Position numbers and translations under genes: made by a program
Notes under the pieces: model-generated
Seen by the model: only the letters and a program-made list of their open reading frames with translations
What the model was told of the DNA's origin: nothing
Database searches by the model: none
In this document: one piece after another, positions 14,191 to 41,153 of the stretch
Position numbering within the stretch: position 1 is the stretch's first letter
Layout of the letters: each line of letters starts with the position of its first letter
Assembly: GCA_021292105.1 (NCBI GenBank)
Contig: CM037872.1
Location: 13,790,791 to 13,854,790, forward strand
Direction of reading: 5' to 3'
Length of the DNA: 64,000 nucleotides
From: Anadara kagoshimensis
Lineage: Eukaryota > Mollusca > Bivalvia > Arcoida > Arcidae

Positions 14191-15185
14191 GGGTCATCTA
14201 AGTAGGAAAATTCAAGTGAAAACCATTTGGTTGAAAAACGTGAAAGAGGGGTATACTTATGAAATTACCTACACAAGTGTGAAGATTTATAAAGAAAAAT
14301 AAAGTAGGAATTGATAATTTAAGAGATTTTAAAATATTTGTTGCATTTTTTAAAGGAAATAGTGCAAAAATACACGTGTTGGGAAAAATAGTTTACAACT
14401 TGTATAACGAATTAATTTAGAAAAATGAAAAGATATTAATATAGTCAACGTCATAGGGCAGTGCAAAGGGGGCAGAGTTTGTTAAAGAACGACGAGGTTT
14501 TTGAAAACTCGACAATTTACAGTTGAGGTTTTATATGATTTGTTTTCCTTTTAAAAATGCGTGTACCAGGCGTGATAGTTCATATTCTAAGGCTACCAAC
14601 GATCCAAGGGAAGACTATGAAAGCTAAGTTTGTATATTACATGTACTTGATTATTGTTGAGGCATATTCGGCTGTATATAGTTCAACATTGTTGAAACAA
14701 AACAATATTCACCTCAATTCAAACAGAACAGTATTATGTGACCGTGCACGTTTAGTGACTTGTTGTATTTTGGATTATTAGTGGCCTTAGAATATAAATA
14801 TCACGCCTGGTACACGCATTTTTAAAAGGAAAATAAATCGTAGATAACATCAACCGTAAATTGTCGAGTTTTCAAAAACCTCGTATTTCTTTAACAAACT
14901 CTGGCCCCTTTGCACTGCTCTATGATGTTGACTATCCTAAGAAATTTTCATTTTTTAAAATTAATTCGTTATACAAGGTGTAAGCTATTTTCCCCAACAC
15001 GTGTATTTTTGCACTATTTTCATTAAAACATGCAACAAATATTTTAAAATTTCTTAAATTATCAATTCCTGCTGTATTTTTATTTATAAATCTTCACGCT
15101 TGTGTAAGTAATTTCATAATTATACCCCTCTTTCAAGCTTTTCAACCAAATGGTTTTCACTTGAATTTTTCTACTTAGATGACCC
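14191..15185. mobile_element. Solitary palindromic TTAA element (995 bp)
   Basis: It starts GGGTCATCTAAGTAGG and ends CCTACTTAGATGACCC-type (here with one change), flanked by TTAA at 14187-14190 and 15186-15189. The arms are inverted repeats of about 390 bp (14191-14578 and 14798-15185) around a ~220-bp loop. No transposase is present. A TTAA duplication is typical of piggyBac and Kolobok elements; which of the two supplied the transposase is not visible. The loop is inverted relative to the 16 standard array copies. Confidence 0.88.
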
Positions 15186-16744: not shown

Positions 16745-17810
16745 TGCAATTAGACACATTAATAAACTGCGTATATCAATGATTATTGTTTAAAGTCAAT
16801 AAGCCATAAAATGTAACTGTAAAGTCAATACTACCACACGTGCCGATTACTCATCACAATATTCAAATACCTGAAAAAGTAGATACCCTTATGGGTTGAT
16901 CATAAAAACAATGAAATGGTGTGTTCAACGTAATACAACTCTACAAGTTTCTAAGTCTGGGCGATGAAGCAAAAATTAAAGTGTAAAATACGTTTAAAAA
17001 TGATTCTTATAATTTTGGTAAATTGAGAAAACTGGTGCTTTGTCGTTTTGTTGACAAACTGCTTAAAAAGTGCATCCAAAACACATTTTGCAGATATCCG
17101 ACAAATTACTTACCTTTAGAACTCAGTTGTCGAACGTTGTAAATGAAAGGTATTTAAGAAATATTTGGTGGATTTTTAAGAATTTTGGCAAGAAAACGGC
17201 AAGAAATCTGTCTTGAAAGATTACAAGAATTTTAAGAATCGTTGTAAAAAGTTAGTTTCAACTTCTTTTTTGTTTCATTGTGTATAGTTCGTAATTGTAA
17301 ACCTTGTATTACCGTATATACCATTTCATTGTTTGTATGGCAATACATTAATAAAGCACGAAAGAGTAACCCAGGTGCGTTCCCAAGTAGTTGTCTACTG
17401 TGACGATTAAGTGCACAAACGGGGACTGTATGATTTAAAGTGGGAATAAGTGGAGAAATGAGGGGAGTATAGGGATTGTTTAAGGTTGAATTTTCCTGAC
17501 GAATGCTACTGTACACTATGCCATTGCAAAGTAGAAACCAAGTATATTTAATATTACAGTAATTATAAAAACAAGGCACGATAATGTACACTCCGTTATA
17601 CAATACCATAGGTCCTCCACGATCTGATGGCAAAGTATACAGCGAGTCGATTTAATACTAGGGTAATTTTAACGAATGAAGCGTGCGCCGGCGTGATTAT
17701 ATACAGACGCAGGTAAAAACTTCTTACATCTATATACGTTTAAACGCATTCGTCTTAATAAACACTCAGCCATGAGATCGTAGACGAACTCTACTACCTT
17801 TGTTGGTGGT

Positions 17811-17814
17811 TTAA
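17811..17814 (+). other. Unoccupied site 1 (empty TTAA target)
   Basis: GGTGGTTTAAATTCATATAT is continuous here and in the other block A spacers, while block B has a palindrome starting right after GGTCGTTTAA. Site 1 is therefore empty in these block A units and filled in block B. Confidence 0.85.
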
Positions 17815-17971
17815 ATTCATATATTTAAATTCAGAAAATATACGGGAATGAATATTCCACTTGTTAAAAAAGTACGTAAACTGTCTTAAAACATTTCACA
17901 GGTGTATGAGAGTTTTTATATAATATTTGCTGTTGTTAAGTCCAATGATTGTATATGTGCAAGTAGGTTAA

Positions 17972-19518
17972 GGGTCATCTAAGTAGGAAAATTCAAGCGA
18001 AAACCATTTGGTTGAAAAACGTGAAAGAGGGGTACAATTATGAAATTACCAAGACAAGTATGAAGACTCCTAAATAGAACTAAAGCAGGAACTGATGATT
18101 TAAGAATGTGTAAAATATTTGTTGCATTTTTTTTTCATTGAAATTGTGCAAAAATACGCGTAATGGGGAAAACTAGTTTTCACCTAGTGTAACAAACTAA
18201 TTTTAAAAATGATAAGATATTAATATAGCCAACGGCATAGAAGAGTGCAATGGGACCAGAGTTTGTTCAAGAAATACGAGACTTTTGAAAACTCGACAAT
18301 TTACGGTTGAGATTTTCAACGATTTATTTTCCTTTTAAAAATGCGTGTACCAGGCGTGATATTTATATTCTAAGACCACCAATAATCCAAAATACAACAA
18401 GCCATTATAGTCGAGTTGACACTCCCATATACTCAATACTTGAACCTAGAAATGTTTTTTCCTATGAAGTTTATTTGCTGTTTTGTATTCTATAGGGTCC
18501 TTAGAGTAAAATTAGGTTAGTTGCCCTGGAGGCAACATTGGGCAAATTGAATAATTTGCATATATCCAAGATGGCTGCCAGTCACCATATTGAAAATCTA
18601 TCTTTTGTAAAAGTACACGGTCAGACAATACTGTTCTATTTGAATTGAGGTGAATATTGTTTGGTTTGAACAATGCTGAACTATATACAGCCGAATATGC
18701 CTCAACAATAATCAAGTAATATACAAACTTAGCTTTTTATAATCTTACCTTGGATCGTTGGTAGCCTTAGAATATGAGCTATCACGCCTGGTACACGCAT
18801 TTTTAAAAGGAAAACAAATCGTAGAAACCCTCAATCGTAAATTGTCGAGTTTTCAAACACTTCGTGTTTCTTTCACAAACTCTGTCTCCTTTGCACTGCT
18901 CTATGACGTTGAATATGCTAATATCTTTTCATTTTTTAAATTAATTCGTTATACAAGGTGAAAACTATTTTTTCCCAACACGTGTATTTTTGTACAATTT
19001 CTATAAAGAAATGCAACAAATATTTAAAAAAATTCTTATATTATCAATTCCTTCTTTATTTTTAATTATAAATCTTCACACTTGTGTAGGTAATTTCATA
19101 ATTATACCCCTCTTTCACGTTTTTAAACCAAATTATTTTCACTTGAATTTTCCTACTAAGATGACCCTTAAAGGGAAAATTAATCGTACATAACCTCAAC
19201 CGTAAATTGTCCAGTTTTCAAAAACCTTGTATTTCTTTAACAAACTCTGGCCCCTTTTCGCTGCTCTATGACGTTAAATGTATTCATATCTTTTCATTTT
19301 TTTAAAATTAATTCGTTACACAAGGTGATCGACATCTTTCCCCAACACGTGTATTTTGCACAATTTCCATAAAAATGCAACAAATATTTTTAAAATTCAT
19401 ATATCAATTCCTGCTTTATTTTTATTTATAAATCTTCACACCTGTGTAGGTAATTTCATAATTGTACCTCTCTTTCGCGTTTATTGTTTTCACTTGAATT
19501 TTCCTACTTAGATGACCC
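17972..19518. mobile_element. Array palindrome 1 (enlarged by an insertion and a repeated arm)
   Basis: Flanked by site 2 TTAA on both sides (17968-17971 and after 19518). It carries a ~200-bp foreign insert at 18408-18607. The right arm appears twice: one ends at 19167, and a second partial arm runs 19168-19518. Confidence 0.85.
18408..18607. mobile_element. Insert within array palindrome 1
   Basis: All other copies read straight through from GCCATTA to AAAAGTGCAC here. About 200 bp of unrelated sequence interrupts this copy, with TA at both junctions. It contains a short palindrome, TTGCCCTGGAGGCAA. No terminal repeats are evident, so the class is unknown. Confidence 0.6.
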
Positions 19519-20758
19519 TTAACGCAATTAGACACATTAATAAACTGTGTATATCAGTAATTATTGTTTATAGTCAATAAGCCATAAAATGTAACTGTAA
19601 AGTCAATACTACCACACGTGCCGATTACTCATCACAATATTCAAATAGCTGAAAAAGTAGATACCCTTATGTGTTAATCATAAAAACAATAAAACGGTGT
19701 GTTCAACGTAATACAACCCTACTGCGTTCTTAGTCTGGGCATTGAAGCAAATATTAAAGTTTAAAATACGTTTAAAAATGATTCTTATAATTTTGGTAAA
19801 TTGAGAAAACTGCTTCTTTGTCGTTTTGTTGACAGACTGCTTAAAAAGTGCATCCAAAACACATTTTGCAGATATCCGACAAATTACTTACCTTTAGAAC
19901 TCAGTTGTCGAACGTTGTAAATGAAAGATATTTAAGGAATATTTGGTGGATTTTTAAGAATTTTGGCAAAAAAATGGCAAGAAATCTGTCTTAAAAAATT
20001 ACAAGAATTATAAGAATCGTTGTAAAAAGTTAGTTTTAATTTCTTATATGTTTCATTGCGTAGAGTTAGTAATTGTAAATGTTGTATTACGGTATATACC
20101 ATTTCATTGTTTGTATGGCAATACATTAGTAAAGCACGAAAGAGAACACCAAGCGCGTTCCCAAGTAGTTCTCTACTGTGACGATTAAGTGCACAAACCG
20201 GGACTGTATGATTTAAAGTGGGAATAAGTGGAGAAATGAGGGGAGTATAGGGATTGTTTAAGGTTGAATATTCCTTACGAATGCTACTGTAGTACTGTAT
20301 ACTTTTCCATTGCAAAGTAGAAACAAGGTCGATTTAATATTACAGTAATTATAGAATACAAGGCGTGATAATGTACATTCCGTTATACAATATCATAGGT
20401 CCTCCATGATCTGATGGCAAAGTATACAGCTAGTCGATTTAATACTAGGGTAATTTTAACGAAAGAGGCATGCGCCGGCGTGATTATATACAGACGCATG
20501 TAAAAACTTCTTACACCTATATACGTTTAAACGCATTCGTCTTAATAAACACTCTGCCATGAGATCGTAGACGAACTCTACTACCTTTGTTGGTGGTTTA
20601 AATTCATATATTTAAATTCAGAAAATATATGGAAATGAATATTGCACCTGTCAAAAAAGTACGTAAATTGTCTTAAAACATTTCACAGGTGTATGAGAGT
20701 TTTTATATAATATTTGCTGTTATTAAGTCCAATGATTGTATATGTGCAAGTAGGATAA

Positions 20759-21748
20759 GGGTCATCTAAGTAGGAAAATTCAAGCGAAAACCATTTGGTT
20801 GAAAAACGTGAAAGAGGGGTACAATTATGAAATTAAGAACACAAGTGTGAAGATTCCTAAATAGAACTAAAGCAGGAATTGATAATTTAAGAATTTTTAA
20901 AATATTTGTTGCATTTTTTCATTGAAATTGTGCAAAAATACGTGTAATGGGGAAAACTAGTTTTCACCTAGTGTAACGAACTAATTTTAAAAATGATAAG
21001 ATATTAATATAGCCGACGGCATAGAGCAGTGCAATGAGACCAGAATTTGTTAAAGAAATACGAGACTTTTGAAAACTCGAGAATTTATGGTTGAGATTTT
21101 CAACGATTTATTTTCCTTTTAAAAATGCGTGTACCAGGCGTGATATTTATATTCTAAGGCCACCAATAATCCAAAATACAACAAGCCATTAAAAGTGCAC
21201 AGTCAGACAATACTGTTCTATTTGAATTGAGGTGAATATTGTTTGCTTTGAACAATGCTGAACTATATACAGCCGAATATGCCTCAACAATAATCAAGTA
21301 ATATACAAACTTAGCTTTTTATAATCTTACCTTGGATCGTTGGTAACCTTAGAATATGAACTATCACGCCTGGTACACGCATTTTTAAAAGGAAAACGAA
21401 TCGTAAAAAGCCTCAATCGTAAATTGTCGAGTTTTCAAAAACCTCGTGTTTCTTTCACAAACTCTGTCTCCTTTGCACTGCTCTATGACGTTGACTATGC
21501 TAATATCTTTTCATTTTTTAAATTAATTCGTTATACAAGGTGAAAACTATTTTTCCCCAACACGTGTATTTTTGTACAATTTCCATAAAGAAATGCGATA
21601 AATATTTTAAAAATTCTTATATTATCAATTCCTGCTTTATTTTTATTAATAAATATTCACACTTGTGTAGGTAATTTCATAATTATACCCCTCTTTCACG
21701 TTTTTAAACCAAATTATTTTCACTTGAATTTTCCTACTTAGATGACCC
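20759..21748. mobile_element. Array palindrome 2
   Basis: Left flank is site 2 with one change (GGATAA for GGTTAA); right flank is site 2 (TTAACGCAAGCAATTAC). Confidence 0.88.
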
Positions 21749-22976
21749 TTAACGCAAGCAATTACACATTAATAAACTGTGTATATCAGTGATTATTGTT
21801 TATAGTCAATAAGCCATAAAATGTAACTGTAAAGTCAATACTACCACACGTGCCGATTACTCATCACAATATTCAAATACCTGAAAAAGTAGACACCCTT
21901 ATGTGTTAATCATAAAAACAACAAAACGGTGTGTTCAACGTAAGACAACCCTACTTCGTTCTTAGTCTGGGCATTGAAGCAAATATTAAAGTGTAAAATA
22001 CGTTTAAAATGATTCTTATCATTTTGGTAAATTGAGAAAACTGCTTCTTTGTCGTTTTGTTGACAAACTGCTTAAAAAGTGCATCAAAAACACATTTTGC
22101 AGATATCCGACGAATTACTTACCTTTAGAACTCAGTTGTCGAACGTTGTGAATGAAAGGTATTTAAGGAATATTTGGTGGATTTTTAAGAATTTTGGCAA
22201 GAAAACGGCAAGAAATCTGTCTTGAAAGATTACAAGAATTTTAAGAATCGTTGTTAAAAGTTAGTTTCATCTTCTTTTTTGTTTCATTGTGTATAGTTCG
22301 TAATTGTAAACCTTGTATTACCGTATATACCATTTCATTGTTTGTATGGCAATACATTAATAAAGCACGAAAGAGTAACCCAGGTGCGTTCCTAAGTAGT
22401 TGTCTACTGTGACGATTAAGTGCACAAACGGGGACTGTATGATTTAAAGAGGGAATAAGTGGAGAAATGGGGGGAGTATAGGGATTGTTTAAGGTTGAAT
22501 TTTCCTAACGAATGCTACTGTAGCACTGTATACTTTCCCATTGCAAAGTAGAAACAAGGTCGATTTAATATTACAGTAATTATAGAATACAAGGCGTGAT
22601 AATGTACATTCCGTTATACAATATCATAGGTCCTCCACGATCTGATGGCAAAGTATACAGCTAGTCGATTTTAATACTAGGGTAATTTTAACGAAAGAGG
22701 CGTGCGCCGGCGTGATTATATACATACGCAGGTAAAAACTTCTTACACATATATACGTTTAAACGCATTCGTCTTAATAAACACTCTGCCATGAGATCGC
22801 AGACGAACTCTACTACCTTTGTTGGTGGTTTAAATTCATATATTTAACTTCAGAAAATATTCCACCTGTCAAAAAAGTACGTAAATTGTCTTAAAACATT
22901 TCACAGGTGTATGAGAGTTTTTATATAATATTTGCTGTTATTAAGTCCAATGATTGTCTATGTGCAAGTAGGATAA

Positions 22977-23952
22977 GGGTCATCTAAGTAGGAAAATTCA
23001 AGCGAAAACCATTTGGTTGAAAAACGTGAAAGAGGAGTACAACTATGAAATTACCAACACAAGTGTGAAGATTCCTAAATAGAACTAAAGCAGGAATTAA
23101 TAATTTAAGAACTTTTAAAATATTTGGTTCATTTTTTCATTGAACTTGTGCAAAAATACGCGTAATAGGGAAAACTAGTTTTCACCTAGTGTAACAAACT
23201 TATTTTAAAAATGATGAGATATTAATATAGCCAACGGCATAGAGCAGTGCAATGGGACCAGAGTTTGTAAAAGAAATACGAGACTTTTGAAAACTCGACA
23301 ATTTATGGTTGAGATTTTCAACGATTTATTTTCCTTTTAAAAATGCGTGTACCAGGCGTGATATTTATATTCTAAGGCCACCAATAATCCAAAATACAAC
23401 AAGCCATTAAAAGTGCACAGTCAGACAATACTGTTCTATTTGAATTGAGGTGAATATTGTTTGCTTTGAACAATGCTGAACTATATACAGCCGAATATGC
23501 CACAACAATAATCAAGTAATATAGAAACTTGGCTTTTATAGTCTTACCTTGGATCTTTTGTAGCCTTAGAACTATGAACTATCACGCCAGGATACATCAT
23601 TTTTAAAGGAAATTAATCGTACATAACCTCAACCGTACATTGTCGAGTTTTCAAAAAACTCGTATTTCTTTACAAACTCTGGCCTTTGCGCTGCTCTATG
23701 ACGTTACTATACATATCTTTTCATTTTTTTAAATTAATTCGTTACACAAGGTGATCGACATCTTTCCCCAACACGTGTATTTTGCACAATTTCCATAAAA
23801 ATGCAACAAATAGTTTTAAAATTCATAAATTATCAATTCCTGCTTTATTTTTATTTATAATATTCACACCTGTGTAGGTAATTTCATAATTGTACCCCTC
23901 TTCGCGTTTTCAACCAAATGTTTTCAGTTGAATTTTCCTACTTAGATGACCC
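22977..23952. mobile_element. Array palindrome 3, mixed flanks
   Basis: Left flank is site 2; right flank is site 1 (TTAAATTCATATATATAAG). An unoccupied site 2 follows at 24112-24115. Confidence 0.88.
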
Positions 23953-24111
23953 TTAAATTCATATATATAAGTTCAGAAAATATACGGGAAGGAATATTTC
24001 ACGTGTTTTAAAAAGTACGTAAATTGTCAAAAAACATTTCACAGGTGTTACAAGAATTTTTATATATTGCTTGCTGTTATTAAGTCCAATGATTGTTTAT
24101 GTGCAAGTACG

Positions 24112-24115
24112 TTAA
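24112..24115 (+). other. Unoccupied site 2 (empty TTAA target)
   Basis: GCAAGTACGTTAATGCAATT reads straight across the point where other units have a palindrome between GCAAGTAGGTTAA and TTAACGCAATTAG. It shows the pre-insertion state inside the array. Confidence 0.88.
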
Positions 24116-25326
24116 TGCAATTAGACGCATTATAAACTGTGTATACCTGATTATTGTTTATAGTCAATAAGCCATAAATGTAACTGTAAAGTCAATACTA
24201 CCACATGCCGATTACTCATCACAATATTCAAATACCTGAAAAAGTAGACACCTTATGTGTTAATCAGAAAAACAATAAAACGGTGTGTTCAACGTAATAC
24301 AACCCTACTGCGTTCTTAGTCTGGCATTGAAGCAAATATTAAAGTGTAAAATACGTTTAAAATGATTCTTATAATTTTGGTAAATTGAGAAAACTGCTTC
24401 TTGTCGTTTTGTTGACAAACTGCTTAAAAAGTGCATCCAAAACACATTTTGCAGATATCCGACAATTACTTACCTTTAGAACTCAGTTGTCGAACGTTGT
24501 GAATGAAAGGTATTTAAGGAATATTTGGTGGATTTTTAAGAATTTTGGCAAAAAAGGCAAGAAATCTGTCTTAAAATTACAAGAATTTTAAGAATCGTTG
24601 TAAAAGTTAGTTTAATCTTCTTTTGTTTCATTGTAGAGTTAGTAATTGTAAATTGTATTACCGTATATACCATTTCATTGTTTGTATGGCAATACATTAA
24701 TAAAGCACGAAAGAGTAACCCAGGCGCGTTCCTAAGTAGTTCTCTACTGTGACGATTAAGTGCACAAACGGGACTGTATGATTTAAAGTGGGAATAAGTG
24801 GAGAAATGAGGGGAGTATAGGGATTGTTTAAGGTTGAATATTCCTAACGAATGCTACTGTAGCACTGTATACTTTCCATTGCAAAGTAGAAACAAGGTCG
24901 ATTTAATATTACAGTAATTATAGAATACAAGGCGTGATAATGTACATTCCGTTATACAATATCATAGGTCCTCCATGATCTGATGGCAAAGTATACAGCT
25001 AGTCGATTTTAATACTAGGGTAATTTTAACGAAAGAGGCGTGCGCCGGCGTGATTATATACAGACGCATGTAAAAACTTCTTACACATATATACGTTTAA
25101 ACGCATTCGTCTTAATAAACACTCTGCCATGAGATCGTAGACGAACTCTACTACCTTTGTTGGTGGTTTAAATTCATATATTTAATTCAGAAAATATAGG
25201 AAATGAATATTCACCTGTCAAAAAAGTACGTAAATTGTCTTAAAACATTTCACAGGTGTATGAGAGTTTTTTATATAATATTTGCTGTTATTAAGTCCAA
25301 TGATTGTATATGTGCAAGTAGGATAA

Positions 25327-26299
25327 GGGTCATCTAAGTAGGAAAATTCAAGCGAAAACCATTTGGTTGAAAAACGTGAAAGAGGGGTACAATTATGAAA
25401 TTAAAACACAAGTGTGAAGATTCCTAAATAGAACTAAAGCAGGAATTGATAATTAAGAATTTTAAAATATTTGTTCATTTTTCATTGAAATTGTGCAAAA
25501 ATACGTGTAATGGGAAAACTAGTTTTCACCTAGTGTAACAACTAATTTTAAAAATGATAATATATTAATATAGCCAACGGCATAGAGCAGTGCAATGAGA
25601 CCAGAATTTGTTAAAGAAATACGAGACTTTTGAAAACTCGAATTTATGGTTGAGATTTTCAACGATTTTTTCCTTTTAAAAATGCGTGTACTAGGCGTGA
25701 TATTTATATTCTAAGGCCACCAATAATCCAAAATACAACAAGCCATTAAAAGTGCACAGTCAGACAATACTGTTCTATTTGAATTGAGGTGAATATTGTT
25801 TGCTTTGAACAATGCTGAACTATATACAGCCGAATATGCCTCAACAATAATCAAGTAATATACAAACTTAGCTTTTTATAATCTTACCTTGGATCGTTGG
25901 TAGCCTTAGAATATGAACTATCACGCCTGGTACACGCATTTTTAAAAGGAAAACGAATCGTAAAAACCTCAATCGTAAATTGTCGAGTTTTCAAAAACTC
26001 GTGTTTCTTTCACAAACTCTGTCTCTTTGCACTGCTCTATGACGTTGACTATGCTAATATCTTTTCATTTTTTAAATTAATTCGTTATACAAGGTGAAAA
26101 CTATTTTTCCCCAACACGTGTATTTTTGTACAATTTCCATAAAGAAATGCGATAAATATTTAAAAATTCTTATATTATCAATTCCTGCTTTATTTTTATT
26201 AATAAATATTCACACTTGTGTAGGTAATTTCATAATTATACCCTCTTTCACGTTTTTAACCAAATTATTTTCACTTGAATTTTCCTACTTAGATGACCC
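25327..26299. mobile_element. Array palindrome 4
   Basis: Site 2 on both sides. It is the dimer partner of the copies at 20759 and 29892. It has several one-base deletions relative to them. Confidence 0.88.
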
Positions 26300-27529
26300 T
26301 TAACGCAAGCAATTACACATTAATAAACTGTGTATATCAGTGATTATTGTTTATAGTCAATAAGCCATAAAATGTAACTGTAAAGTCAATACTACCACAC
26401 GTGCCGATTACTCATCACAATATTCAAATACCTGAAAAAGTAGACACCTTATGTGTTAATCATAAAACAACAAAACGGTGTGTTCAACGTAAGACAACCC
26501 TACTTCGTTCTTAGTCTGGGCATTGAAGCAAATATTAAAGTGTAAAATACGTTTAAAAATGATTCTTATAATTTTGGTAAATTGAGAAAACTGCTTCTTT
26601 GTCGTTTTGTTGACAAACTGCTTAAAAAGTGCATCAAAAACACATTTTGCAGATATCCGACGAATTACTTACCTTTAGAACTCAGTTGTCGAACGTTGTG
26701 AATGAAAGGTATTTAAGGAATATTTGGTGGATTTTTAAGAATTTTGGCAAGAAAACGGCAAGAAATCTGTCTTGAAAGATTACAAGAATTTTAAGAATCG
26801 TTGTTAAAAGTTAGTTTCATCTTCTTTTTTGTTTCATTGTGTATAGTTCGTAATTGTAAACCTTGTATTACCGTATATACCATTTCATTGTTTGTATGGC
26901 AATACATTAATAAAGCACGAAAGAGTAACCCAGGTGCGTTCCTAAGTAGTTGTCTACTGTGACGATTAAGTGCACAAACGGGGACTGTATGATTTAAAGG
27001 GTAAGTGGAGAAATGGGGGGTATAGGGATTGTTTAAGGTTGAATTTTCCTAACGAATGCTACTGTAGCACTGTATACTTTCCCATTGCAAAGTAGAAACA
27101 AGGTCGATTTAATATTACAGTAATTATAGAATACAAGGCGTGATAATGTACATTCCGTTATACAATATCATAGGTCCTCCACGATCTGATGGCAAAGTAT
27201 ACAGCTAGTCGATTTTAATACTAGGGTAATTTTAACGAATGAGCGTGCGCCGGCGTGATTATATACATACGCAGGTAAAAACTTCTTACACATATATACG
27301 TTTAAACGCATTCGTCTTAATAAACACTCTGCCATGAGATCGCAGACGAACTCTACTACCTTTGTTGGTGGTTTAAATTCATATATTTAACTTCAGAAAA
27401 TATTCCACCTGTCAAAAAAGTACGTAAATTGTCTTAAAACATTTCACAGGTGTATGAGAGTTTTTATATAATATTTGCTGTTATTAAGTCCAATGATTGT
27501 ATATGTGCAAGTAGGATAAGGGTCATCTA

Positions 27530-28500
27530 AGTAGAAATTCAAGCGAAAACCATTTGGTTGAAAAACGTGAAAGAGGAGTACAACTATGAAATTACCAACA
27601 CAAGTGTGAAGATTCCTAAATAGAACTAAAGCAGGAATTAATAATTTAAGAACTTTTAAAATATTTGGTTCATTTTTTCATTGAACTTGTGCAAAAATAC
27701 GCGTAATAGGGAAAACTAGTTTCACCTAGTGTAACAAACTATTTTAAAAATGATGATATATTAATATAGCCAACGGCATAGAGCAGTGCAATGGGACCAG
27801 AGTTTGTAAAGAAATACGAGACTTTTGAAAACTCGACAATTTATGGTTGAATTTTCAACGATTTATTTTCCTTTTAAAAATGCGTGTACCAGGCGTGATA
27901 TTTATTTCTAAGGCCACCAATAATCCAAAATACAACAAGCCATTAAAAGTGCACAGTCAGACAATACTGTTCTATTTGAATTGAGGTGAATATTGTTTGC
28001 TTTGAACAATGCTGAACTATATACAGCCGAATATGCCACAACAATAATCAAGTAATATAGAAACTTGGCTTTTATAGTCTTACCTTGGATCTTTTGTAGC
28101 CTTAGAACTATGAACTATCACGCCAGGTACATGCATTTTAAAGGGAAAATTAATCGTACATAACCTCAACCGTACATTGTCGAGTTTTCAAAAACCTCGT
28201 ATTTCTTTACCAAACTCTGGCCCCTTTGCGCTGCTCTATGACGTTAAACTTATACATATCTTTTCATTTTTTTAAAATTAATTCGTTACACAAGGTGATC
28301 GACATCTTTCCCCAACACGTGTATTTTGCACAATTTCCATAAAAATGCAACAAATAGTTTTAAAATTCATAAATTATCAATTCCTGCTTTATTTTTATTT
28401 ATAAATCTTCACACCTGTGTAGGTAATTTCATAATTGTACCCCTCTTTCGCGTTTTTCAACCAAATTGTTTTCAGTTGAATTTTCCTACTTAGATGACCC
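27530..28500. mobile_element. Array palindrome 5, mixed flanks
   Basis: Same junction class as 22977-23952: site 2 left, site 1 right, followed by an unoccupied site 2 at 28656-28659. Confidence 0.88.
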
Positions 28501-28655
28501 TTAAATTCATATATATAAGTTCAGAAAATATACGGGAAGGAATATTTCACGTGTTTAAAAAGTACGTAAATTGTCAAAAAATTTCACAGGTGTACAAGAA
28601 TTTTTATATATTGCTTGCTGTTATTAAGTCCAATGATTGTTTATGTGCAAGTACG

Positions 28656-28659
28656 TTAA
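28656..28659 (+). other. Unoccupied site 2, second example
   Basis: Same uninterrupted GCAAGTACGTTAATGCAATT, one higher-order period (about 4.54 kb) from the first empty site. Confidence 0.88.
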
Positions 28660-29065
28660 TGCAATTAGACGCATTAATAAACTGTGTATACCAGTGATTA
28701 TTGTTTATAGTCAATAAGCCATAAAATGTAACTGTAAAGTCAATACTACCACACGTGCCGATTACTCATCACAATATTCAAATACCTGAAAAAGTAGACA
28801 CCCTTATGTGTTAATCAGAAAAACAATAAAACGGTGTGTTCAACGTAATACAACCCTACTGCGTTCTTAGTCTGATTGAAGCAAATATTAAAGTGTAAAA
28901 TACGTTTAAAGATGATTCTTATAATTTTGGTAAATTGAGAAAACTGCTTCTTTGTCGTTTTGTTGACAAACTGCTTAAAAAGTGCATTCAAAACACATTT
29001 TGCAGATATCCGACAAATTACTTACCTTTAGAACTCAGTTGTCGAACGTTGTAAATGAAAGATAT

Positions 29066-29449
29066 TTAAGGAATATTTGGTGGATTTTTAAGAATTTTGG
29101 CAAAAAAATGGCAAGAAATCTGTCTTAAAAAATTACAAGAATTATAAGAATCGTTGTAAAAAGTTAGTTTTAATTTCTTATATGTTTCATTGCGTAGAGT
29201 TAGTAATTGTAAATGTTGTATTACGGTATATACCATTTCATTGTTTGTATGGCAATACATTAGTAAAGCACGAAAGAGAACACCAGGCGCGTTCCCAAGT
29301 AGTTCTCTACTGTGACGATTAAGTGCACAAACCGGGACTGTATGATTTAAAGTGGGAATAAGTGGAGAAATGAGGGGAGTATAGGGATTGTTTAAGGTTG
29401 AATATTCCTTACGAATGCTACTGTAGTACTGTATACTTTTCCATTGCAA
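29066..29449 (-). other. Open frame in the array spacer (127 codons), probably not a gene
   Basis: The longest frame of the spacer; a near-identical 127-codon frame lies at 19932-20315 and a diverged 133-codon frame at 17232-17633. It contains STLNNPYTPLISPLIPTLNH but no recognisable domain. Block B copies and the middle block A copy break it by small indels. It may be a remnant of what the spacer once was, or chance. Confidence 0.15.
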
Positions 29450-29891
29450 AGTAGAAACAAGGTCGATTTAATATTACAGTAATTATAGAATACAAGGCGT
29501 GATAATGTACATTCCGTTATACAATATCATAGGTCCTCCATGATCTGATGGCAAAGTATACAGCTAGTCGATTTAATACTAGGGTAATTTTAACGAATGA
29601 AGCGTGCGCCGGCGTGATTATATACAGACGCATGTAAAAACTTCTTACACCTATATACGTTTAAACGCATTCGTCTTAATAAACACTCTGCCATGAGATC
29701 GTAGACGAACTCTACTACCTTGTTGGTGGTTTAAATTCATATATTTAAATTCAGAAAATATATGGAAATGAATATTGCACCTGTCAAAAAAGTACGTAAA
29801 TTGTCTTAAAACATTTCACAGGTGTATGAGAGTTTTTATATAATATTTGCTGTTATTAAGTCCAATGATTGTATATGTGCAAGTAGGATAA

Positions 29892-30889
29892 GGGTCATCT
29901 AAGTAGGAAAATTCAAGCGAAAACCATTTGGTTGAAAACGTGAAAGAGGGGTACAATTATGAAATTAAGAACACAAGTGTGAAGATTCCTAAATAGAACT
30001 AAAGCAGGAATTGATAATTTAAGAATTTTTAAAATATTTGTTGCATTTTTTCATTGAAATTGTGCAAAAATACGTGTAATGGGGAAAACTAGTTTTCACC
30101 TAGTGTAACGAACTAATTTTAAAATGATAAGATATTAATATAGCCGACGGCATAGAGCAGTGCAATGAGACCAGAATTTGTTAAAGAAATACGAGACTTT
30201 TGAAAACTCGAGAATTTATGGTTGAGATTTTCAACGATTTATTTTCCTTTTAAAAATGCGTGTACCAGGCGTGATATTTATATTCTAAGGCCACCAATAA
30301 TCCAAAATACAACAAGCCATTAAAAGTGCACAGTCAGACAATACTGTTCTATTTGAATTGAGGTGAATATTGTTTGCTTTGAACAATGCTGAACTATATA
30401 CAGCCGAATATGCCTCAACAATAATCAAGTAATATACAAACTTAGCTTTTTATAATCTTACCTTGGATCGTTGGTAACCTTAGAATATGAACTATCACGC
30501 CTGGTACACGCATTTTTAAAAGGAAAACGAATCGTAAAAAGCCTCAATCGTAAATTGTCGAGTTTTCAAAAACCTCGTGTTTCTTTCACAAACTCTGTCT
30601 CCTTTGCACTGCTCTATGACGTTGACTATGCTAATATCTTTTCATTTTTTAAATTAATTCGTTATACAAGGTGAAAACTATTTTTCCCCAACACGTGTAT
30701 TTTTGTACAATTTCCATAAAGAAATGCGATAAATATTTTAAAAATTCTTATATTATCAATTCCTGCTTTATTTTTATTAATAAATATTCACACTTGTGTA
30801 GGTAATTCCATAATTATATCCCTCTTTCACGTTTTTAAACCAAATTATTTTCACTTGAATTTTCCTACTTAGATGACCCTTAACGCAAG
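29892..30889. mobile_element. Array palindrome 6
   Basis: Site 2 on both sides. It closely matches the copy at 20759, 9133 bp away, which is two dimer periods. Confidence 0.88.
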
Positions 30890-31956
30890 TAATTACACAC
30901 ATTAATAAACTGTGTATATCAGTGATTATTGTTTATAGTCAATAAGCCATAAAATGTAACTGTAAAGTCAATACTACCACACGTGCCGATTACTCATCAC
31001 AATATTCAAATACCTGAAAAAGTAAACAACCTATATGTGTTAATCATAAAAACAACAAAACGGTGTGTTCAACGTAATACAACCCTACTGCGTTCTTAAT
31101 CTGGGCATTGAAGCAAATATTAAAGTTTAAAATATGTTTAAAAATGATTCTGATAATTTTGGTAAATTGAGAAAACGGCTTCTTTGTCGTTTTGTTGACA
31201 AACTGCTTAAAAAGTGCATCAAAAACACATTTTGCAGATATCCGACGAATTACTTACCTTTAGAACTCAGTTGTCGAACGTTGTGAATGAAAGGTATTTA
31301 AGGAATATTTGGTGGATTTTTAAGAATTTTGGCAAAAAATGGCAAGAAATCTGTCTTGAAAGATTACAAGAATTATAAGAATCGTTGTAAAAAGTTAGTT
31401 TTAATTTCTTATATGTTTCATTGCGTAGAGTTAGTAATTGTAAATGTTGTATTACGGATATACCATTTCATTGTCTGTATGGCAATACATTAGTAAAGCA
31501 CGAAAGAGTAACCCAGGTGCATTCCCAAGTAGTTGTCTACTGTGACGATTAAGTGCACAAACGGGGACTGTATGATTTTAAGTGGAGAAATGAGGGGAGT
31601 ATAGGGATTGTTTAAGGTTGAATATTCCTTACGAATGCTACTGTAGCACTGTATACTTTCCCATTGCAAAGTAGAAACAAGGTCGATTTAATATTACAGT
31701 AATTATAGAATACAAGGCATGATAATGTACATTCCTTTATACAATATCATAGGTCCTCCATGATCTGATGGCAAAGTATACAGCTAGTCGATTTTAATAC
31801 TAGTGTAATTTTAACGAAAGAGGCGTGCGCCGGCGTGATTATATACAGACACAGGTAAAGCTTCTTACACCTATATACGTTTTAAACCCATCCGTCTTAA
31901 TAAACACTCTGTCATGAGATCGTGGGCGAACTCTACTACCTTTATTGGTCGTTTAA

Positions 31957-32940
31957 GGGTCATCTTAGTTGGAAAATTCAAGTGAAAACCATTTGGTTAA
32001 AACGTGAAAGAGGGGTACAATTATGAAATTACCTACACAAGTGTGAAGATTTATAAATAAAAATAAAGCAGGAACTGATAATTTAAGAATTTTTGAAATA
32101 TGTGTTGCATTTTTTGTTGAAATTGTGCAAAAAAAAAAACACGTGTTGGGAAGATGACTTTCACCTTGTGTAACGAATTAATATGAAAAATAAAAAGATA
32201 TTAATAAATTCAACGTTATAGAGCAGTGCAAAGGGGTCAGAGTTTGTTAAAGAAATACAAGGTTTTTGAAAACTCGATAATTTACGGTTACGGTTATCTA
32301 TGATTTATTTTCCTTTTAAAAATGCGTGTACAAGGCGTGATTTTTATGTTCTAAGGCCACAAATAATCCAAAATACAACAAGTCATAAAAAGTGCATAGT
32401 CACACAATACTGTACTATTTGAATTGAGGTGAATATTGTTTGCTTTGAACAATGCTGAACTATATACAGCCGAATATGCCACAACAATAATCAAGTAATA
32501 TAGAAACTTGGCTTTTATAATCTTACCTTGGATCTTTTGTAGCCTTAGAACTATGAACTATCACGCCAGGTACATGCATTTTAAAGGGAAATTAATCGTA
32601 CATAACCTCAACTGTACATTGTCGAGTTTTCAAAAACTTCGTGTTTCTTCACAAACTCTGTCTCTTTTGCACTGCTCTATGACGTTGACTATGCTAATAT
32701 CTTTTCATTTTTTAAATTAATTCGTAATACAAGGTGAAAACTATTTTTCCCCAACACGTGTATTTTTGTTACAATTTCCATAAAGAAATGCGACAAATAT
32801 TTTAAAAATTCTGATATTATCAATTCCTGCTTTATTTTTATTTATAAATTCACACTTGTGTAGGTAATTTCATAATTATACCCCTCTTTCACGTTTTTCA
32901 ACCAAATTATTTTCACTTGAATTTTCCTACTTAATGACCC
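31957..32940. mobile_element. Array palindrome 7, first of block B
   Basis: First copy with site 1 (GTCGTTTAA) on the left; site 2 on the right. It marks the switch from block A to block B. Confidence 0.88.
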
Positions 32941-34019
32941 TTAACGCAATTAGACACATTAATAAACTGTGTATATCAGTGATTATTGTTTATAGTCAAT
33001 AAGCCATAAAAATGTAACTGTAAAGTCAATACTACCACACGTGCCGATTACTCATTACAATATTCAAATAGCTGAAAAAGTAGATACCCTTATGTGTTAA
33101 TCATAAAAACAATAAAACGGTGTGTTCAACGTAATACAACCCCTACTGCGTTCTTAGTCTGAGCATTGAAGCAAATATTAAAGTTTAAAATACGTTTTAA
33201 AAATGATTCTTATAATTTTTGGTAAATTGAGAAAACTGCTTCTTTGTCGTTTTGTTGACAAACTGCTTAAAAAGTGCATCCAATCACATTTTGCAGATAT
33301 CCGACGAATTACTTACCTTTAGAAACTCAGTTGTCGAACGTTGTGAATGAAAGGTATTTAAGGAATATTTGTGGATTTTTAAGAATTTTGGCAAGAAAAA
33401 CTGCAAGAAATCTGTCTTGAAAGATTACAAGAATTTTAAGAATCGTTGTAAAAAGTTAGTTTCAACTTTTTTTGTTTCATTGTGTATAGTTCGTAATTGT
33501 AAACCTTGTTTTACCGTATATACCATTTCATTTTTATGGCAATACATTAATAAAGCACGAAAGAGTAACCAGGTGCGTTCCTAAGTAGTTGTGTACTGTG
33601 ACGATTAAGTGCACAAACGGGGGACTGTATGATTTAAAGTGGGAATAAGTGGAGAAATGAGGGGAGTATAGGGATTGTTTAAGGTTGAATTTCCTAACGA
33701 ATGCTATTGTAGCACTGTATACTTGTCCCATTGCAAAGTAGAAACAAGGTCTATTTAATATTACAGTAATTATAGAATACAAGGCGTGATAATGTACATT
33801 CCGTTATACATATATCATAGGTCCTCCACGATCTGATGGCAAAGTATACAGCTAGTCGATTTAATACTAGGGTAATTTAACGAAAGAGCGTGCGCCGGCG
33901 TGATTATATACAGACACAGGTAAAGCTTCTTACACCTATATACGTTTTAAACCATCCGTCTTAATAAACACTCTGTCATGAGATCGTGGGCGACTCTACT
34001 ACCTTTATTGGTCGTTTAA

Positions 34020-34989
34020 GGGTCATCTTAGTAGGAAATTTCAAGTGAAAACCATTTGGTTTAAAACGTGAAAGAGGGGTACAACTATGAAATTACCTAC
34101 ACAAGTGTGAAGATTTATAAATAAAATAAACAGGAACTGATAATTTAAGAATTTTGAAATATGTGTTGCATTTTTTGTGAAATTGTGCAAAAAAACCACG
34201 TGTTGGGAAGATGATTTTCACTTGTGTAACGAATTAATATAAGAAATGAATAGATATTAATAAATTCAACGTTATAGAGCATGCAACGGGGCAGAGTTGT
34301 TAAAGAAATACAAGGTATTTGAAAACTCGACAATTTACGGTTGGGTTATTACGATTAATTTTCCCTTTTAAAAATGCGTGTACAAGGCGTGATATTTATG
34401 TTCTAAGGCAACTAATAATCCAAATACAACAAGTCATAAAAAGTGCACGGTCACACAATACTGTACTATTGAATTGAGGTGAATATTGTTTGCTTTGAAC
34501 AATGCTGAACTATATACAGCCGAATATGCTACAACAATAATCAAGTAATATAGAAACTTGGCTTTTATAATCTTACCTTGGATCTTTTGTAGCCTTAGAA
34601 TATGAACTATCACGCCAGGTACATGCATTTTAAAGGGAAAATTAATCGTACATAACCTCAACCGTAAATTGTCGAGTTTTCAAAAACCTTGTATTTCTTT
34701 AACAAACTCTGGCCCCTTTGCGCTGCTCTATGACGTTTAAATTTATTCATATCTTTTCATTTTTTTTAAAATTAATTCGTTACACAAGGTGATCGACATC
34801 TTTTTCCAACACGTGTATTTTGCACAATTTCCATAAAAATGCAACAAATTTTTAAAATTCATATATTATGAATTCCTGCTTATTTTATTTATAAATCTTC
34901 ACACCTGTGTAGGTAATTTCATAGTTGTACTATCTTTCGCGTTTTTCAACCAAATTGTTTTCACTTGAATTTTCCTACTTAGATGACCC
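34020..34989. mobile_element. Array palindrome 8
   Basis: Site 1 left. The right TTAA is reduced to TAA (CCCTAACGC), one of many single-base losses in this part of the array. Confidence 0.85.
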
Positions 34990-36065
34990 TAACGCAATTA
35001 GACACTTAAAACTGTGTATATCAGTGATTATTGTTATAGTCAATAAGCCATAAAATGTAACTGTAAAGTCAATACTACCACAACGTGCCGATTACTCATC
35101 ACAATATTCAAAATAGCTGAAAAAGTAGATACCCTTATGTGTTAATCATAAAAAACAAATAAAACGGTGTGTTCAAACGTAATACAACCCTACTGCGTTC
35201 TTAGTCTGAGCATTGAAGCAAATATTAAAGTTTAAAATACGTTTAAAAATGATTCTTATAATTTTGGTAAATTGAGAAAACTGCTTCTTTGTCGTTTTGT
35301 TGACAAACTGCTTAAAAAGTGCTCCAAATCACATTTTGCAGATATCCGACGAATTACTTACCTTTAGAACTCAGTTGTCGAACGTTGTGAATGAAAGGTA
35401 TTTAAGGAATATTTTGGTGGATTTTTAAGAATTTTGGCAAGAAAAACGGCAAGAAATCTGTCTTGAAAGATTACAAGAATTTTAAGAATCGTTGTAAAAA
35501 GTTAGTTTCAACTTCTTTTTTGTTTCATTGTGTATAGTTCGTAATTGTAAACCTTGTTTTACCGTATATACCATTTCATTGTTTGTATGGCAATACATTA
35601 ATAAAGCACGAAAGAGTAACCCAGGTGCGTTCCTAAGTAGTTGTCTACTGTGACGATTAAGTGCACAAACGGGACTGTATGATTAAGTGGGAATAAGTGG
35701 AGAAATGAGGGGAGTATAGGGATTGTTTAAGGTTGAATTTCCTAACGAATGTATGTAGCACTTATACTTTCCCATTGCAAAGTAGAAACAAGGTCTATTT
35801 AATATTACAGTAATTATAGAATACAAGGCTGATAATGTACATTCCGTTATACAATATCATAGGTCCTCCACGATCTGATGGCAAACATACAGCTAGTCGA
35901 TTTTAATAACTAGGGTAATTTTAACGAAAAAGGCGTGCGCCGGCGTGATTATATACAGACACAGGTAAAGCTTCTTACACTATATACGTTTTAAACCCAT
36001 CCGTCTTAATAAACACTCTGTCATGAGATCGTGGGCGAACTCTACTACCTTTATTGGTCGTTTAA

Positions 36066-37043
36066 GGGTCATCTTAGTAGGAAATTTCAAGTGAAAACCA
36101 TTTGGTTAAAAACGTGAAAGAGGGGTACAACTATGAAATTACCTACACAAGTGTGAAGATTTATAAATAAAAATAAAACAGGAACTGATAATTTAAGAAT
36201 TTTTGAAATGTGTTGCATTTTTGTTGAAATTGTGCAAAAAAAACCACGTGTTGGGAAGATGATTTTCACCTTGTGTAACGAATTAATATAAAAAATGAAT
36301 AGATATTAATAAATTCAACGTATAGAGCAATGCAACGGGGCCAGAGTTTGTTAAAGAAATACAAGGTATTTGAAAACTCGACAATTACGGTTGAGGTTAT
36401 CTACGATTTATTTTCCTTTTAAAAATGCGTGTACAAGGCGTGATATTTATGTTCTAAGGCAACTAATAATCCAAAATATAACAAGGTCATAAAAAGTGCA
36501 CAGTCACACAATACTGTACTATTTGAATTGAGGTGAATATTGTTTGCTTGAACAATGCTGAACTATATACAGCCTAATATGCTACAATAATAATCAAGTA
36601 ATATAGAAACTTGGCTTTTATAATCTTACCTTGGATCTTTTGTAGCCTTAGAATATGAACTATCACGCCAGGTACATGCATTTTAAAGGGGAAAATTAAT
36701 CGTAACATAACCTCAACCGTAAATTGTCGAGTTTTCAAAAACCTTGTATTTCTTTACAAACTCTGGCCCCTTTGCGCTGCTCTATGACGTTAAATTTATT
36801 CATATCTTTTCATTTTTTTTAAAATTAATTCGTTACGCAAGGTGATCGACATCTTTCCCAACACGTGTATTTTGCACAATTTCCATAAAAATGCAACAAA
36901 TATTTTTAAAAATTCATATATTATGAATTCCTGCTTTATTTTTTATAAATCTTCACACCTGTGTAGGTAATTTCATAGTTGTACTATCTTTCGCGTTTTT
37001 CAACCAAATTGTTTTCACTTGAATTTTCCTACTTAGATGACCC
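36066..37043. mobile_element. Array palindrome 9
   Basis: Standard block B copy: site 1 left, site 2 right. Confidence 0.88.
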
Positions 37044-38120
37044 TTAACGCAATTAGACACATTAATAAACTGTGTATATCAGTGATTATTGTTTATAGTC
37101 AAAAGCCATAAAATGTAACTGTAAAGTCAACTACTACCACACGTGCCGATTACTCATCACAATATTCAAATAGCTGAAAAAGTAGATACCCTTATGTGTT
37201 AATCATAAAACAATAAAACGGTGTGTTCAACGTAATTACAACCCCTACTGCGTTCTTAGTCTGAGCATTGAAGCAAATATTAAAGTTTAAAATACGTTTA
37301 AAAATGATTCTTATAATTTTGGTAAATTGAGAAAACTGCTTCTTTGTCGTTTTGTTGACAAACTGCTTAAAAAGTGCATCCAAATCACATTTTGCAGATA
37401 TCCGACGAATTACTTACCTTAGAACTCAGTTGTCGAACGTTGTGAATGCAAGGTATTTAAGGAATATTTGGTGGATTTTTAAGAATTTTGGCAAGAAAAC
37501 GGCAAGAAATCTGTCTTGAAAGATTACAAGAATTTAAGAATCGTTGTAAAAAGTTAGTTTCAACGTTTTTTGTTTCATTGTGTCTAGTTCGTAATTGTAA
37601 ACCTGTATTACCGTATATACCATTTCATTGTTTGTATGGCAATACATTAATAAAGCACGAAAGAGTAACCCAGGTGCGTTCCTAAGTAGTTGTCTACTGT
37701 GACGATTAAGTGCACAAACGGGGACTGTATGATTTAAAGTGGGAATAAGTGGAGAAATGAGGGGAGTATAGGGATTGTTTAAGGTTGAATTTCCTAACGA
37801 ATGCTATGTAGCACTGTATACTTTCCATTGCAAAGTAGAAACAAGGTCTATTTAATATTACAGTAATTATAGAATACAAGGCGTGATAATGTACATTCCG
37901 TTATACAATATCATAGGTCCTCCACGATCTGATGGCAAAGTATACAGCTAGTCGATTTTAATACTAGGGTAATTTTAACGAAAGAGGCGTGCGCCGGCGT
38001 GATTATATACAGACACAGGTAAAGCTTCTTACACCTATATACGTTTTAAACCCATCCGTCTTAATAAACACTCTGTCATGAGATCGTGGGCGAACTCTAC
38101 TACCTTTATTGGTCGTTTAA

Positions 38121-39100
38121 GGGTCATCTAGGAAATTTCAAGTGAAAACCATTTGGTTAAAACGTGAAAGAGGGGTACAACTATGAAATTACCTACACAA
38201 GTGTGAAATTTATAAATAAAAATAAAACAGGAACTGATAATTTAAGAATTTTTGAAATATGTGTTGCATTTTTTGTTGAAATTGTGCAAAAAAAAACCAC
38301 GTGTTGGGAAGATGATTTTCACCTTGTGTGTAACGAATTAATATAAGAAATGATAGATATTAATAAATTCAACGTTATAGAGCAATGCAACGGGGCCAGA
38401 GTTTGTTAAAGAAATACAAGTATTTGAAAACTCGACAATTTACGGTTGAGGTTATCTACGATTAATTTTCCTTTTAAAAATGCGTGTACAAGCGTGATAT
38501 TTATGTTCTAAGGCAACTAATAATCCAAAATACAACAAGTCATAAAAAGTGCACGGTCACACAATACTGTACTATTTGAATTGAGGTGAATATTGTTTGC
38601 TTTGAACAATGCTGAACTATATACAGCCGAATATGCTACAACAATAATCAAGTAATATAGAAAACTTGGCTTTTATAATCTTACCTTGGATCTTTTGTAG
38701 CCTTAGAATATGAACTATCACGCCAGGTACATGCATTTTAAAGGGAAAATTAATCGTACACAAACCTCAACCGTAAATTGTCGAGTTTTCAAAAAACCTT
38801 GTATTTCTTTAACAAACTCTGGCCCCTTTGCGCTGCTCTATGACGTTAAATTTATTCATATCTTTTCATTTTTTTAAAATTAATTCGTTACACAAGGTGA
38901 TCGACATCTTTTCCCAACACGTGTATTTTGCACAATTTCCATAAAAATGCAACAAATATTTTAAAATTCATATATTATGAATTCCTGCTTTATTTTTATT
39001 TATAAATCTTCACACCTGTGTAGGTAATTTCATAGTTGTACTATCTTTCGCGTTTTTCAACCAAATTGTTTTCACTTGAATTTTCCTACTTAGATGACCC
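38121..39100. mobile_element. Array palindrome 10
   Basis: Standard block B flanks. The left end has lost a few bases (GGGTCATCTAGGAAATTTC). Confidence 0.88.
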
Positions 39101-40178
39101 TTAACGCAATTAGACACATTAATAAACTGTGTATATCAGTGATTATTGTTTATAGTCAATAAGCCATAAAATGTAACTGTAAAGTCAATACTACCACACG
39201 TGCCGATTACTCATCACAATATTCAAATAGCTGAAAAAGTAGATACCCTTATGTGTTAATCATAAAAACAATAAAACGGTGTGTTCAACGTAATACAACC
39301 CTACTGCGTTCTTAGTCTGAGCATTGAAGCAAATATTAAAGTTTAAAATACGTTTAAAACTGATTCTTATAATTTTGGTAAATTGAGAAAACTGCTTCTT
39401 TGTCGTTTTGTTGACAAACTGCTTAAAAAGTGCATCCAAATCACATTTTGCAGATATCCGACGAATTACTTACCTTTAGAACTCAGTTGTCGAACGTTGT
39501 GAATGAAAGGTATTTAAGGAATATTTGGTGGATTTTTAAGAATTTTGGCAAGAAAACGGCGAAGAAATCTGTCTTGAAAGATTACAAGAATTTTAAGAAT
39601 CGTTGTAAAAAGTTAGTTTCAACTTCTTTTTTGTTTCATTGTGTATAGTTCGTAATTGTAAACCTTGTTTACCGTATATACCATTTCATTGTTTGTATGC
39701 ATACATTAATAAAGCACGAAAGAGTAACCCAGGTGCGTTCCTAAGTAGTTGTCTACTGTGACGATTAAGTGCACAAACGGGGACTGTATGATTTAAGTGG
39801 AATAAGTGGAGAAATGAGGGAGTATAGGGATTGTTTAAGGTTGAATTTCCTAACGAATGCTATTGTAGCACTGTATACTTTCCCATTGCAAAGTAGAAAC
39901 AGGTCTATTTAATATTACAGTAATTATAGAATACAAGGCGTGATAATGTACATTCCGTTATACAATATCATAGGTCCTCCACGATCTGATGGCAAAGTAT
40001 ACAGCTAGTCGATTTTAATACTAGGGTAATTTTAACGAAAAGGCGTGCGCCGGCGTGATTATATACAGACAACAGGTAAAGCTTTCTTACACCTATATAC
40101 GTTTTAAACCCATCCGTCTTAATAAACACTCTGTCATGAGATCGTGGGCGAACTCTACTACCTTTATTGGTCGTTTAA

Positions 40179-41153
40179 GGGTCATCTTAGTAGGAAATTT
40201 CAAGTGAAAAACCATTTGGTTAAAACGTGAAAGAGGGGTACAACTATGAAATTACCTACACAAGTGTGAAGATTTATAAATAAAAATAAAACAGGAACTG
40301 ATAATTTAAGAATTTTTGAAATATGTGTTGCATTTTTTGTTGAAATTGTGCAAAAAAAACCACGTGTTGGGAAGATGATTTTCACCTTGTGTAACGAATT
40401 AATATAAGAAATGAATAGATATTAATAAATTCAACGTTATAGAGCAATGCAACGGGGCCAGAGTTTGTTAAAGAAATACAAGGTATTTGAAAACTCGACA
40501 ATTTACGGTTGAGGTTATCTACGATTTATTTTCCTTTTAAAAATGCGTGTACAAGGCGTGATATTTATGTTCTAAGGCAACTAATAATCCAAAATACAAC
40601 AAGTCTAAAAAGTGCACGGTCACACAATACTGTACTATTTGAATTGAGGTGAATATTGTTTGCTTTGAACAATGCTGAACTATATACAGCCTAATATGCT
40701 ACAATAATAATCAAGTAATATAGAAACTTGGCTTTTATAATCTTACCTTGGATTTTGTAGCCTTAGAATATGAACTATCACGCCAGGTACATGCATTTTA
40801 AAGGGAAAAATTAATCGTACAACCTCAACCGTAAATTGTCGAGTTTTCAAAAACCTTGTATTTCTTTAACAAACTCTGGCCCCTTTGCGCTGCTCTATGA
40901 CGTTAAATTTATTCATATCTTTTCATTTTTTTAAAATTAATTCGTTACAAGGTGATCGACATCTTTTCCCAACACGTGTATTTTGCACAATTTCCATAAA
41001 AATGCAACAAATATTTTTAAAATTCATAATTATGAATTCCTGCTTTATTTTATTTATAAATCTTCACACCTGTGTAGGTAATTTCATAGTTGTACTATCT
41101 TTCGCGTTTTTCAACCAATTGTTTTCACTTGAATTTTCCTACTTAGATGACCC
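40179..41153. mobile_element. Array palindrome 11
   Basis: Standard block B flanks, with minor indels in the right arm. Confidence 0.88.

Follow-up and report, generated by a model that had tools for sequence, protein, structure and literature searches.

A 64,000-nucleotide stretch of the Anadara kagoshimensis genome (the window, on contig CM037872.1, here called C16) contains a tandem array in which a spacer of ~1.23 kb alternates, from 16746 to 53413, with a ~990-bp near-palindromic element bordered by TTAA. The elements occupy two sites in the spacer, site 1 and site 2, and beside copies with the same site on both sides there are copies whose left flank belongs to one site and whose right flank belongs to the other. 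We consider it very probable that unequal crossing-over inside the element, between site-1 and site-2 copies, made these mixed-flank classes. The analysis used one assembly, the genome searched amounting to 1.115 Gb. Throughout, 2/1 denotes site 2 on the left and site 1 on the right, 1/2 the reverse, and 1/1 and 2/2 the same site on both sides; V-numbers are element copies of a sister array on the same contig, and plain numbers such as 31957 are start positions in the window.

Flank classes in two related arrays

Over the window array and its sister (C16:13286654-13322135, ~520 kb off in the same orientation), eleven copies are 2/2 (four in the window, seven in the sister array), five are 1/1 (sister array only), two are 2/1 (window only) and twelve are 1/2 (ten and two, respectively). 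Products of ectopic recombination should have exchanged flanks and identifiable parental insertions; here 2/1 and 1/2 copies stand beside 1/1 and 2/2 copies, and both parental insertions are present, eleven times as 2/2 and five times as 1/1. A preliminary description of the window had proposed that elements at sites 1 and 2 underwent unequal crossing-over with each other, and the 1/1 parental class missing from the window but found five times in the sister array supports this. Three copies fall outside the four classes, namely 52428, V29398 and V30391; the latter two, with a site-1 left flank and a site-2 right flank respectively, form a head-to-tail pair with one TTAA in common.

The layout of the window array, as mapped by BLAST with the spacer and the element, is as follows.

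16746..53413, + strand: whole array, 17 spacers and 17 elements in a single orientation
Within 16746..53413, + strand: block A to ~30879 and block B from ~30880
17811..17814, + strand: site 1, TTAA, empty
17968-17971: site 2 TTAA, 157 bp downstream of the empty site 1
17972..19518, + strand: first element, compound, 2/2, with a ~200-bp internal insert, then TTAA and a second partial right arm
20759..21748, + strand: element, 2/2 (parental class), arms ~393 bp, loop ~210 bp
21749..22976, + strand: reference spacer unit, ~1228 bp, 157-bp inter-site segment included
22977..23952, + strand: chimeric element, 2/1, switch between 23435 and 23464
23953..24115, + strand: second copy of the 157-bp segment, beta version, ending in an empty site 2 (TTAA 24112-24115)
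25327..26299, + strand: element, 2/2
27520..28500, + strand: chimeric element, 2/1, switch between 27971 and 28000
28501..28659, + strand: 157-bp segment, beta version, and empty site 2 (TTAA 28656-28659)
29892..30879, + strand: element, 2/2
31957..32940, + strand: chimeric element, 1/2, opposite-direction switch between 32617 and 32638
34020..51344, + strand: nine more 1/2 elements with spacers, site-1-type until the last ~33 bp
34020, 36066, 38121, 40179, 42236, 44292, 46238, 48298, 50363, + strand: starts of those nine elements
52428..53413, + strand: right-edge element with an array-type left arm, a dispersed-type loop (opposite orientation) and right arm, and a non-array right flank
14191..15185, - strand: solo copy of this family lying outside the array, flanked by TTAA on each side, with its loop in the orientation opposite to that of the array copies

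The preliminary description had placed an empty site 1 at 17811, which is exact, and a second target site about 157 bp from it, which is the TTAA at 17968-17971. It was also right that site 2 is filled on both sides at 20759, 25327 and 29892 (17972 is a further case), and that 22977-23952 and 27520-28500 have site 2 on the left and site 1 on the right and are followed, after ~157 bp, by an empty site 2 at 24112 and 28656. Its statement that block B always has site 1 on the left and site 2 on the right, without the 157 bp, holds for 10 of 11 copies and fails for 52428, where a site-1 left flank is paired with a non-array right flank. An exact pattern for the site-1-right junction occurs 7 times in the genome and one for the site-1-left junction 19 times. 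These junctions are not chance occurrences, because all 26 fall in the window array or its sister on C16 and the reversed-pattern controls gave 0.

Chimeric elements and linked flank markers

The elements were painted at 93 diagnostic positions, chosen solely from copies with the same site on both sides, so that mixed-flank copies played no part in the choice. Thirty-three rows were painted: 16 of the 17 window array copies (the compound 17972 was left out), all 16 sister-array copies and 14191. Ten 2/2 and five 1/1 copies are almost uniform, in part by construction. A single switch from site-2-type to site-1-type fits the 2/1 copies with 4 misfits in 88 positions (22977) and 1 in 92 (27520), and a single mid-element switch in the other direction fits 31957 with 1 misfit in 90 and the sister copy V20709 with 1 in 92; as few runs were obtained in 0 of 2000 shuffles for each of the four. 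Against the best parents, V16264 and V22921, which are 124 substitutions apart, these four clear chimeras each switch with 2-4 misfits. The switch lies at columns 476-512, in the loop, in both 2/1 copies and at columns 700-722 in 31957 and V20709, and columns 512-700 are mostly site-1-type in both pairs alike. Exceptions to a single switch are columns 431 and 991 in both 2/1 copies, 652 and 664 in 22977, and 119 and 597 in 31957 and V20709. The nearest pure relative of the site-1-type halves is V16264 (2-9 differences), and those of the site-2-type halves are V22921, V25118 and V27333 (0-2). The preliminary description had asked whether the mixed-flank copies are recombinants; judged by this painting, 22977, 27520, 31957 and V20709 are chimeras of the same two parental haplotypes.

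The flanks carry markers of their own. The 157-bp segment exists in two versions, alpha in 13 copies before site-2 elements and beta in seven copies after site-1-type right ends, which are 86-91% identical to each other (~88%) and 93-100% identical within each version. In both 2/1 copies alpha lies to the left and beta to the right, and this beta is 100% identical to the one next to V16264, their nearest site-1 parent. Two like copies would be expected from a local duplication or from hybrid insertion involving sister chromatids, and alpha and beta are seen instead. Past site 2, TATATC follows 24 of 24 filled site-2 right flanks and none of seven empty sites, all seven of which read ACC at the corresponding place, so that the markers agree with the right flank in every case, filled (24/24) or empty (7/7). 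Comparison with arrays on C6, C7 and C11 suggests that TATATC is the derived state. The marker TTAACGC could not be used to follow lineages because arrays outside have it too. With the 1/1 parental class and the chimeric copies, the placing of alpha and beta on the expected sides and the markers past site 2 make up four independent lines of support for unequal crossing-over.

Block B is not the single product class of the preliminary description. Among the twelve 1/2 copies, two (31957 and V20709) switch mid-element and ten remain site-1-type almost to the right end, as does V30391. In these eleven tip-switch copies (V30391, V41332 and nine of the window) column 1003 shows the letter of site 1 and column 1010 that of site 2; the latter is also the letter of the outside-type copies and may therefore be an unchanged older letter. 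Their origin is decided by the flank, because TATATC tracks the filled site-2 right flank. A TTAA-to-TTAA deletion inside one site-1 unit is disfavoured for them, as their right flank has the site-2-lineage TATATC. Of the ten 1/2 copies in the window, only 31957 switches mid-element; the other nine, all in block B, switch only in the last ~33 bp by a separate exchange, and hence more than one exchange is needed.

Weighing the origin of the mixed flanks

We propose that a pre-existing spacer array was invaded by two members of a single family of non-autonomous, near-palindromic DNA transposons that target TTAA: one inserted at site 1 in one unit, the other at site 2 in a different unit, as is shown by both parental classes, the empty sites and the spacer-only arrays elsewhere. 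The two kinds of unit would then have paired out of register via the element, and homologous exchange within it would have brought a left flank from one site together with a right flank from the other, as the chimeric elements and the linked flank markers show. One product, without the 157 bp between the sites, would be block B, and the reciprocal product, in which the 157 bp stand to the left and again to the right of the element and site 2 is empty, would be represented by 22977 and 27520. To judge from spacing and identity, these products were then presumably amplified by ordinary unequal crossing-over, which gave block B its ~2.06-kb repeats and block A its ~4.57-kb repeat.

A similar origin is probable for the right edge of the array, by exchange of an array element with a solo element inserted in the flank, as one copy and the empty site of the sister locus indicate. 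In this copy, 52428, an array-type left arm is followed by a loop in the opposite orientation and by a right arm nearest to outside-type copies; the outside-like part is 95.3% identical to V29398 and 94.0% to 14191, as against 87-90% to the array types. The sequence to its right, TTAAGAGTCATACAA, has a match in the sister locus, where ATTAACAGTCATACAA is found without an element about 350 bp past the spacer end.

Several findings weigh against a crossover origin. The switch points of the reciprocal classes lie ~190-250 columns apart, and the 2/1 class comprises two copies, both in one array. Chimeric sequence is clear in four copies, while the eleven tip-switch copies show it through one in-element position together with flank markers and do not stand out in the run test (119-644 of 2000 shuffles). 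Moreover, 22977 has additional exceptions (columns 652 and 664) and lies in a region rich in gaps of 1-2 bp. From 22977 to 26299 there are 40 such gaps, compared with 15 in the comparable sister repeat, which suggests residual sequence errors. Since the switch points differ, one simple crossover is insufficient, and a conversion tract beside the crossover, or two events, would be needed. The two classes are therefore reciprocal in kind, as the preliminary description held, but not in their switch points.

The same discrepancy gives some room to non-reciprocal exchange only, in which gene conversion, or break-induced copying out into the flank, made each mixed class separately. This would accommodate both the different switch points and the mostly site-1-type columns 512-700 of the two classes. 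We nevertheless regard it as unlikely, because both reciprocal classes are present and derive from the same two parental haplotypes, for which a single crossover with a conversion tract is simpler.

It is improbable that the mixed junctions, or the entire sister array, are artefacts of mis-joined reads or of both haplotypes having been kept in the assembly. The array flanks (window 7916-10698 and 53414-59479 against C16:13279001-13329000) do match in order at 83-96%, and two flank probes have one other near-full-length match each in the genome (92% and 96%, at 523 and 519 kb), which is what one would expect of a retained haplotype; there is also a gap-rich part in block A. However, an identical mid-element switch occurs in both arrays (31957 and V20709), the 1/2 junction occurs twelve times, and the recombination reading is unaffected if the two arrays are two haplotypes of one locus. 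They may be this or a segmental duplication.

In hybrid-end (aberrant) transposition, transposase would join the left end of an element to a right end from the other chromatid and insert the two at the neighbouring TTAA 157 bp away; a single step would thus produce the deletion together with its reciprocal duplication and would reseal an empty site. It predicts the same flank patterns, is compatible with the precise TTAA junctions and clean empty sites, and would leave elements nearly unmixed, as the eleven tip-switch copies are. We consider it highly improbable, since chimerism is plain in four copies, the 157-bp duplicates belong to two ~88%-identical versions and are not copies of one (one alpha and one beta in each duplication-class copy), and the tip-switch copies have past site 2 a site-2-lineage marker that their own downstream empty site would not supply. 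A test of this kind was described for Galileo, where, in the available part of that study, copies are expected to be identical under hybrid insertion and chimeric under ectopic recombination (PMC2775673). Hybrid element insertion, the serious rival, is accordingly rejected for 22977, 27520, 31957 and V20709, which are chimeric where identical, unmixed copies would be expected; for the tip-switch copies the in-element sequence is not decisive. Independent insertions with an unrelated local deletion and duplication of the 157 bp have their mere possibility in their favour and next to no probability, given the exact TTAA junctions at both sites, the chimeric arms, the alpha and beta versions and the linked flank markers.

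By the Galileo test, as far as the available account of it goes (PMC2775673), the window array is a case of ectopic recombination in a tandem array. The Galileo copies at inversion 2z3 of Drosophila buzzatii are likewise long-inverted-repeat copies with exchanged flanks and chimeric sequence. Galileo made one inversion between distant sites, whereas same-orientation tandem copies here gave deletion and duplication classes, and, unlike that case, the window and sister arrays retain both parental classes as well. Reciprocal duplication and deletion at transposon ends are also found in the part of the literature on maize Ac reversed-ends transposition available to us (PMC3744419); those events are driven by transposase, whereas the evidence here is of homologous exchange within the element.

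Element family, spacer arrays and homogenisation

The element has arms of ~393 bp, 86% complementary, flanking a loop of ~210 bp, and its termini start GGGTCATC beside TTAA. A 30-base pattern of TTAA plus terminus has 622 exact matches genome-wide (304 + 318), and its reversed control 0. TTAA lies on both sides of 14191 and of the copy L002, both found without requiring TTAA, and also of L050 and L051, which were selected by a TTAA-containing pattern. Of the 13 copies with a site-2 left flank (eleven 2/2 and two 2/1), 12 have ATAA in place of the left TTAA (for example at 20755-20758 and 22973-22976), and 17972 is the sole copy with TTAA intact there. In the compound 17972-19518 the extra ~200 bp sits near the loop, and L002, on C3, gave a match spanning the same join. 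Head-to-tail pairs of full elements with one common TTAA occur inside the array (sister array, near C16 13308398-13310370) and outside it (L053, C2:20178650-20180833), and look as if an element had inserted into the target duplication of another. In a FastTree phylogeny of 15 copies, the site-1 and site-2 types form one clade (support 1.000) despite only ~88% identity; they may reflect a local hop, be two members of one subfamily, or be tied together by exchange after insertion.

piggyBac elements have a CCC-type terminus. TTAA fits piggyBac, and the GGG terminus here does not resemble that form. The T2-MITE/Kolobok elements of Xenopus share the TTAA target and two terminal purines (here GG), but the AGGRR terminus given in the available part of their description (PMC6004289) is absent from this element, which starts GGGTCAT. 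Tetris, a foldback element of Drosophila virilis associated with a satellite, is likewise a long-inverted-repeat element in a tandem repeat family. In the portion of that report available (PMC4079207), its repeats arose within the element arms, whereas here the spacer array probably came first and the element would have entered later; its target duplications are 8-10 bp, whereas TTAA is found here, which sets this element apart from the foldback/Tetris type. A search of a phage collection gave no match, Rfam gave one weak tRNA match and nothing else, and Pfam had no family for the two open reading frames examined. Near the array there are tandem repeats at 13378-13774, 59741-60248 and 61916-62889, with units of 133, 28/84 and 145 bp, respectively, the last of which has a further match in the sister array's left flank.

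Spacer-only tandem arrays, 74-80% identical over the longer matches, lie on C6 (34047670-34056720), C7, C11, C18 and C19, with no forward element match among the matches listed (reverse matches were not listed). In the C6 array the site-2 position is a single TTAACGCAA in all nine units listed (10 matches), and a single intact TTAA stands there in both C19 units and both C7 units; the spacer array is therefore probably older than the insertions. The spacer also carries an inverted repeat of itself, and in one spacer of the sister array (C16:13291053-13293213) a ~460-bp internal part is present in three tandem copies.

Spacer divergence was compared over 29 of 33 spacers (window 16746, sister 7654, the rearranged 12053-14213 and the partial 42325 were omitted). 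Site-1-filled and site-2-filled units differ by 4.1% on average, and units within these groups by 2.3% and 2.8%. Up to column 975, most 75-column windows have between-group values near the within-group ones; a peak of 7.5% at columns 525-600 is matched within groups (6.1 and 7.8%). In the final two windows before site 1 (~140 bp) the groups differ by 8.0% and 10.3%, with 0.6-2.0% within them, and in the 157-bp segment by about 12%, near the ~12% between the two element types. As far as this alignment goes, clear excess divergence between unit types is confined to the insertion region and the other parts of the spacer are homogenised. Units are up to 99.8% identical across the two arrays and the array flanks only 83-96%, suggesting exchange between arrays after their separation, or different constraints. 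A tentative reading, to which we give slightly less than even weight, is that the insertions locally impede concerted evolution because they sit at two positions that do not match. If true, the exception to it is a crossover falling inside the element itself; and if the elements are sisters, a single local hop divided the array into two lineages, which now mix everywhere but around the insertions.

The mechanism is already known; what is unusual is the completeness of this record. Satellite arrays normally lose their own history through homogenisation. Here a pair of insertion sites separated by 157 bp provides fixed flank markers and the elements provide internal ones, so that a single assembly reveals where exchanges took place, which parents took part in each and how far homogenisation reaches. 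The array is thus a natural place for measuring how a transposon insertion interrupts concerted evolution.

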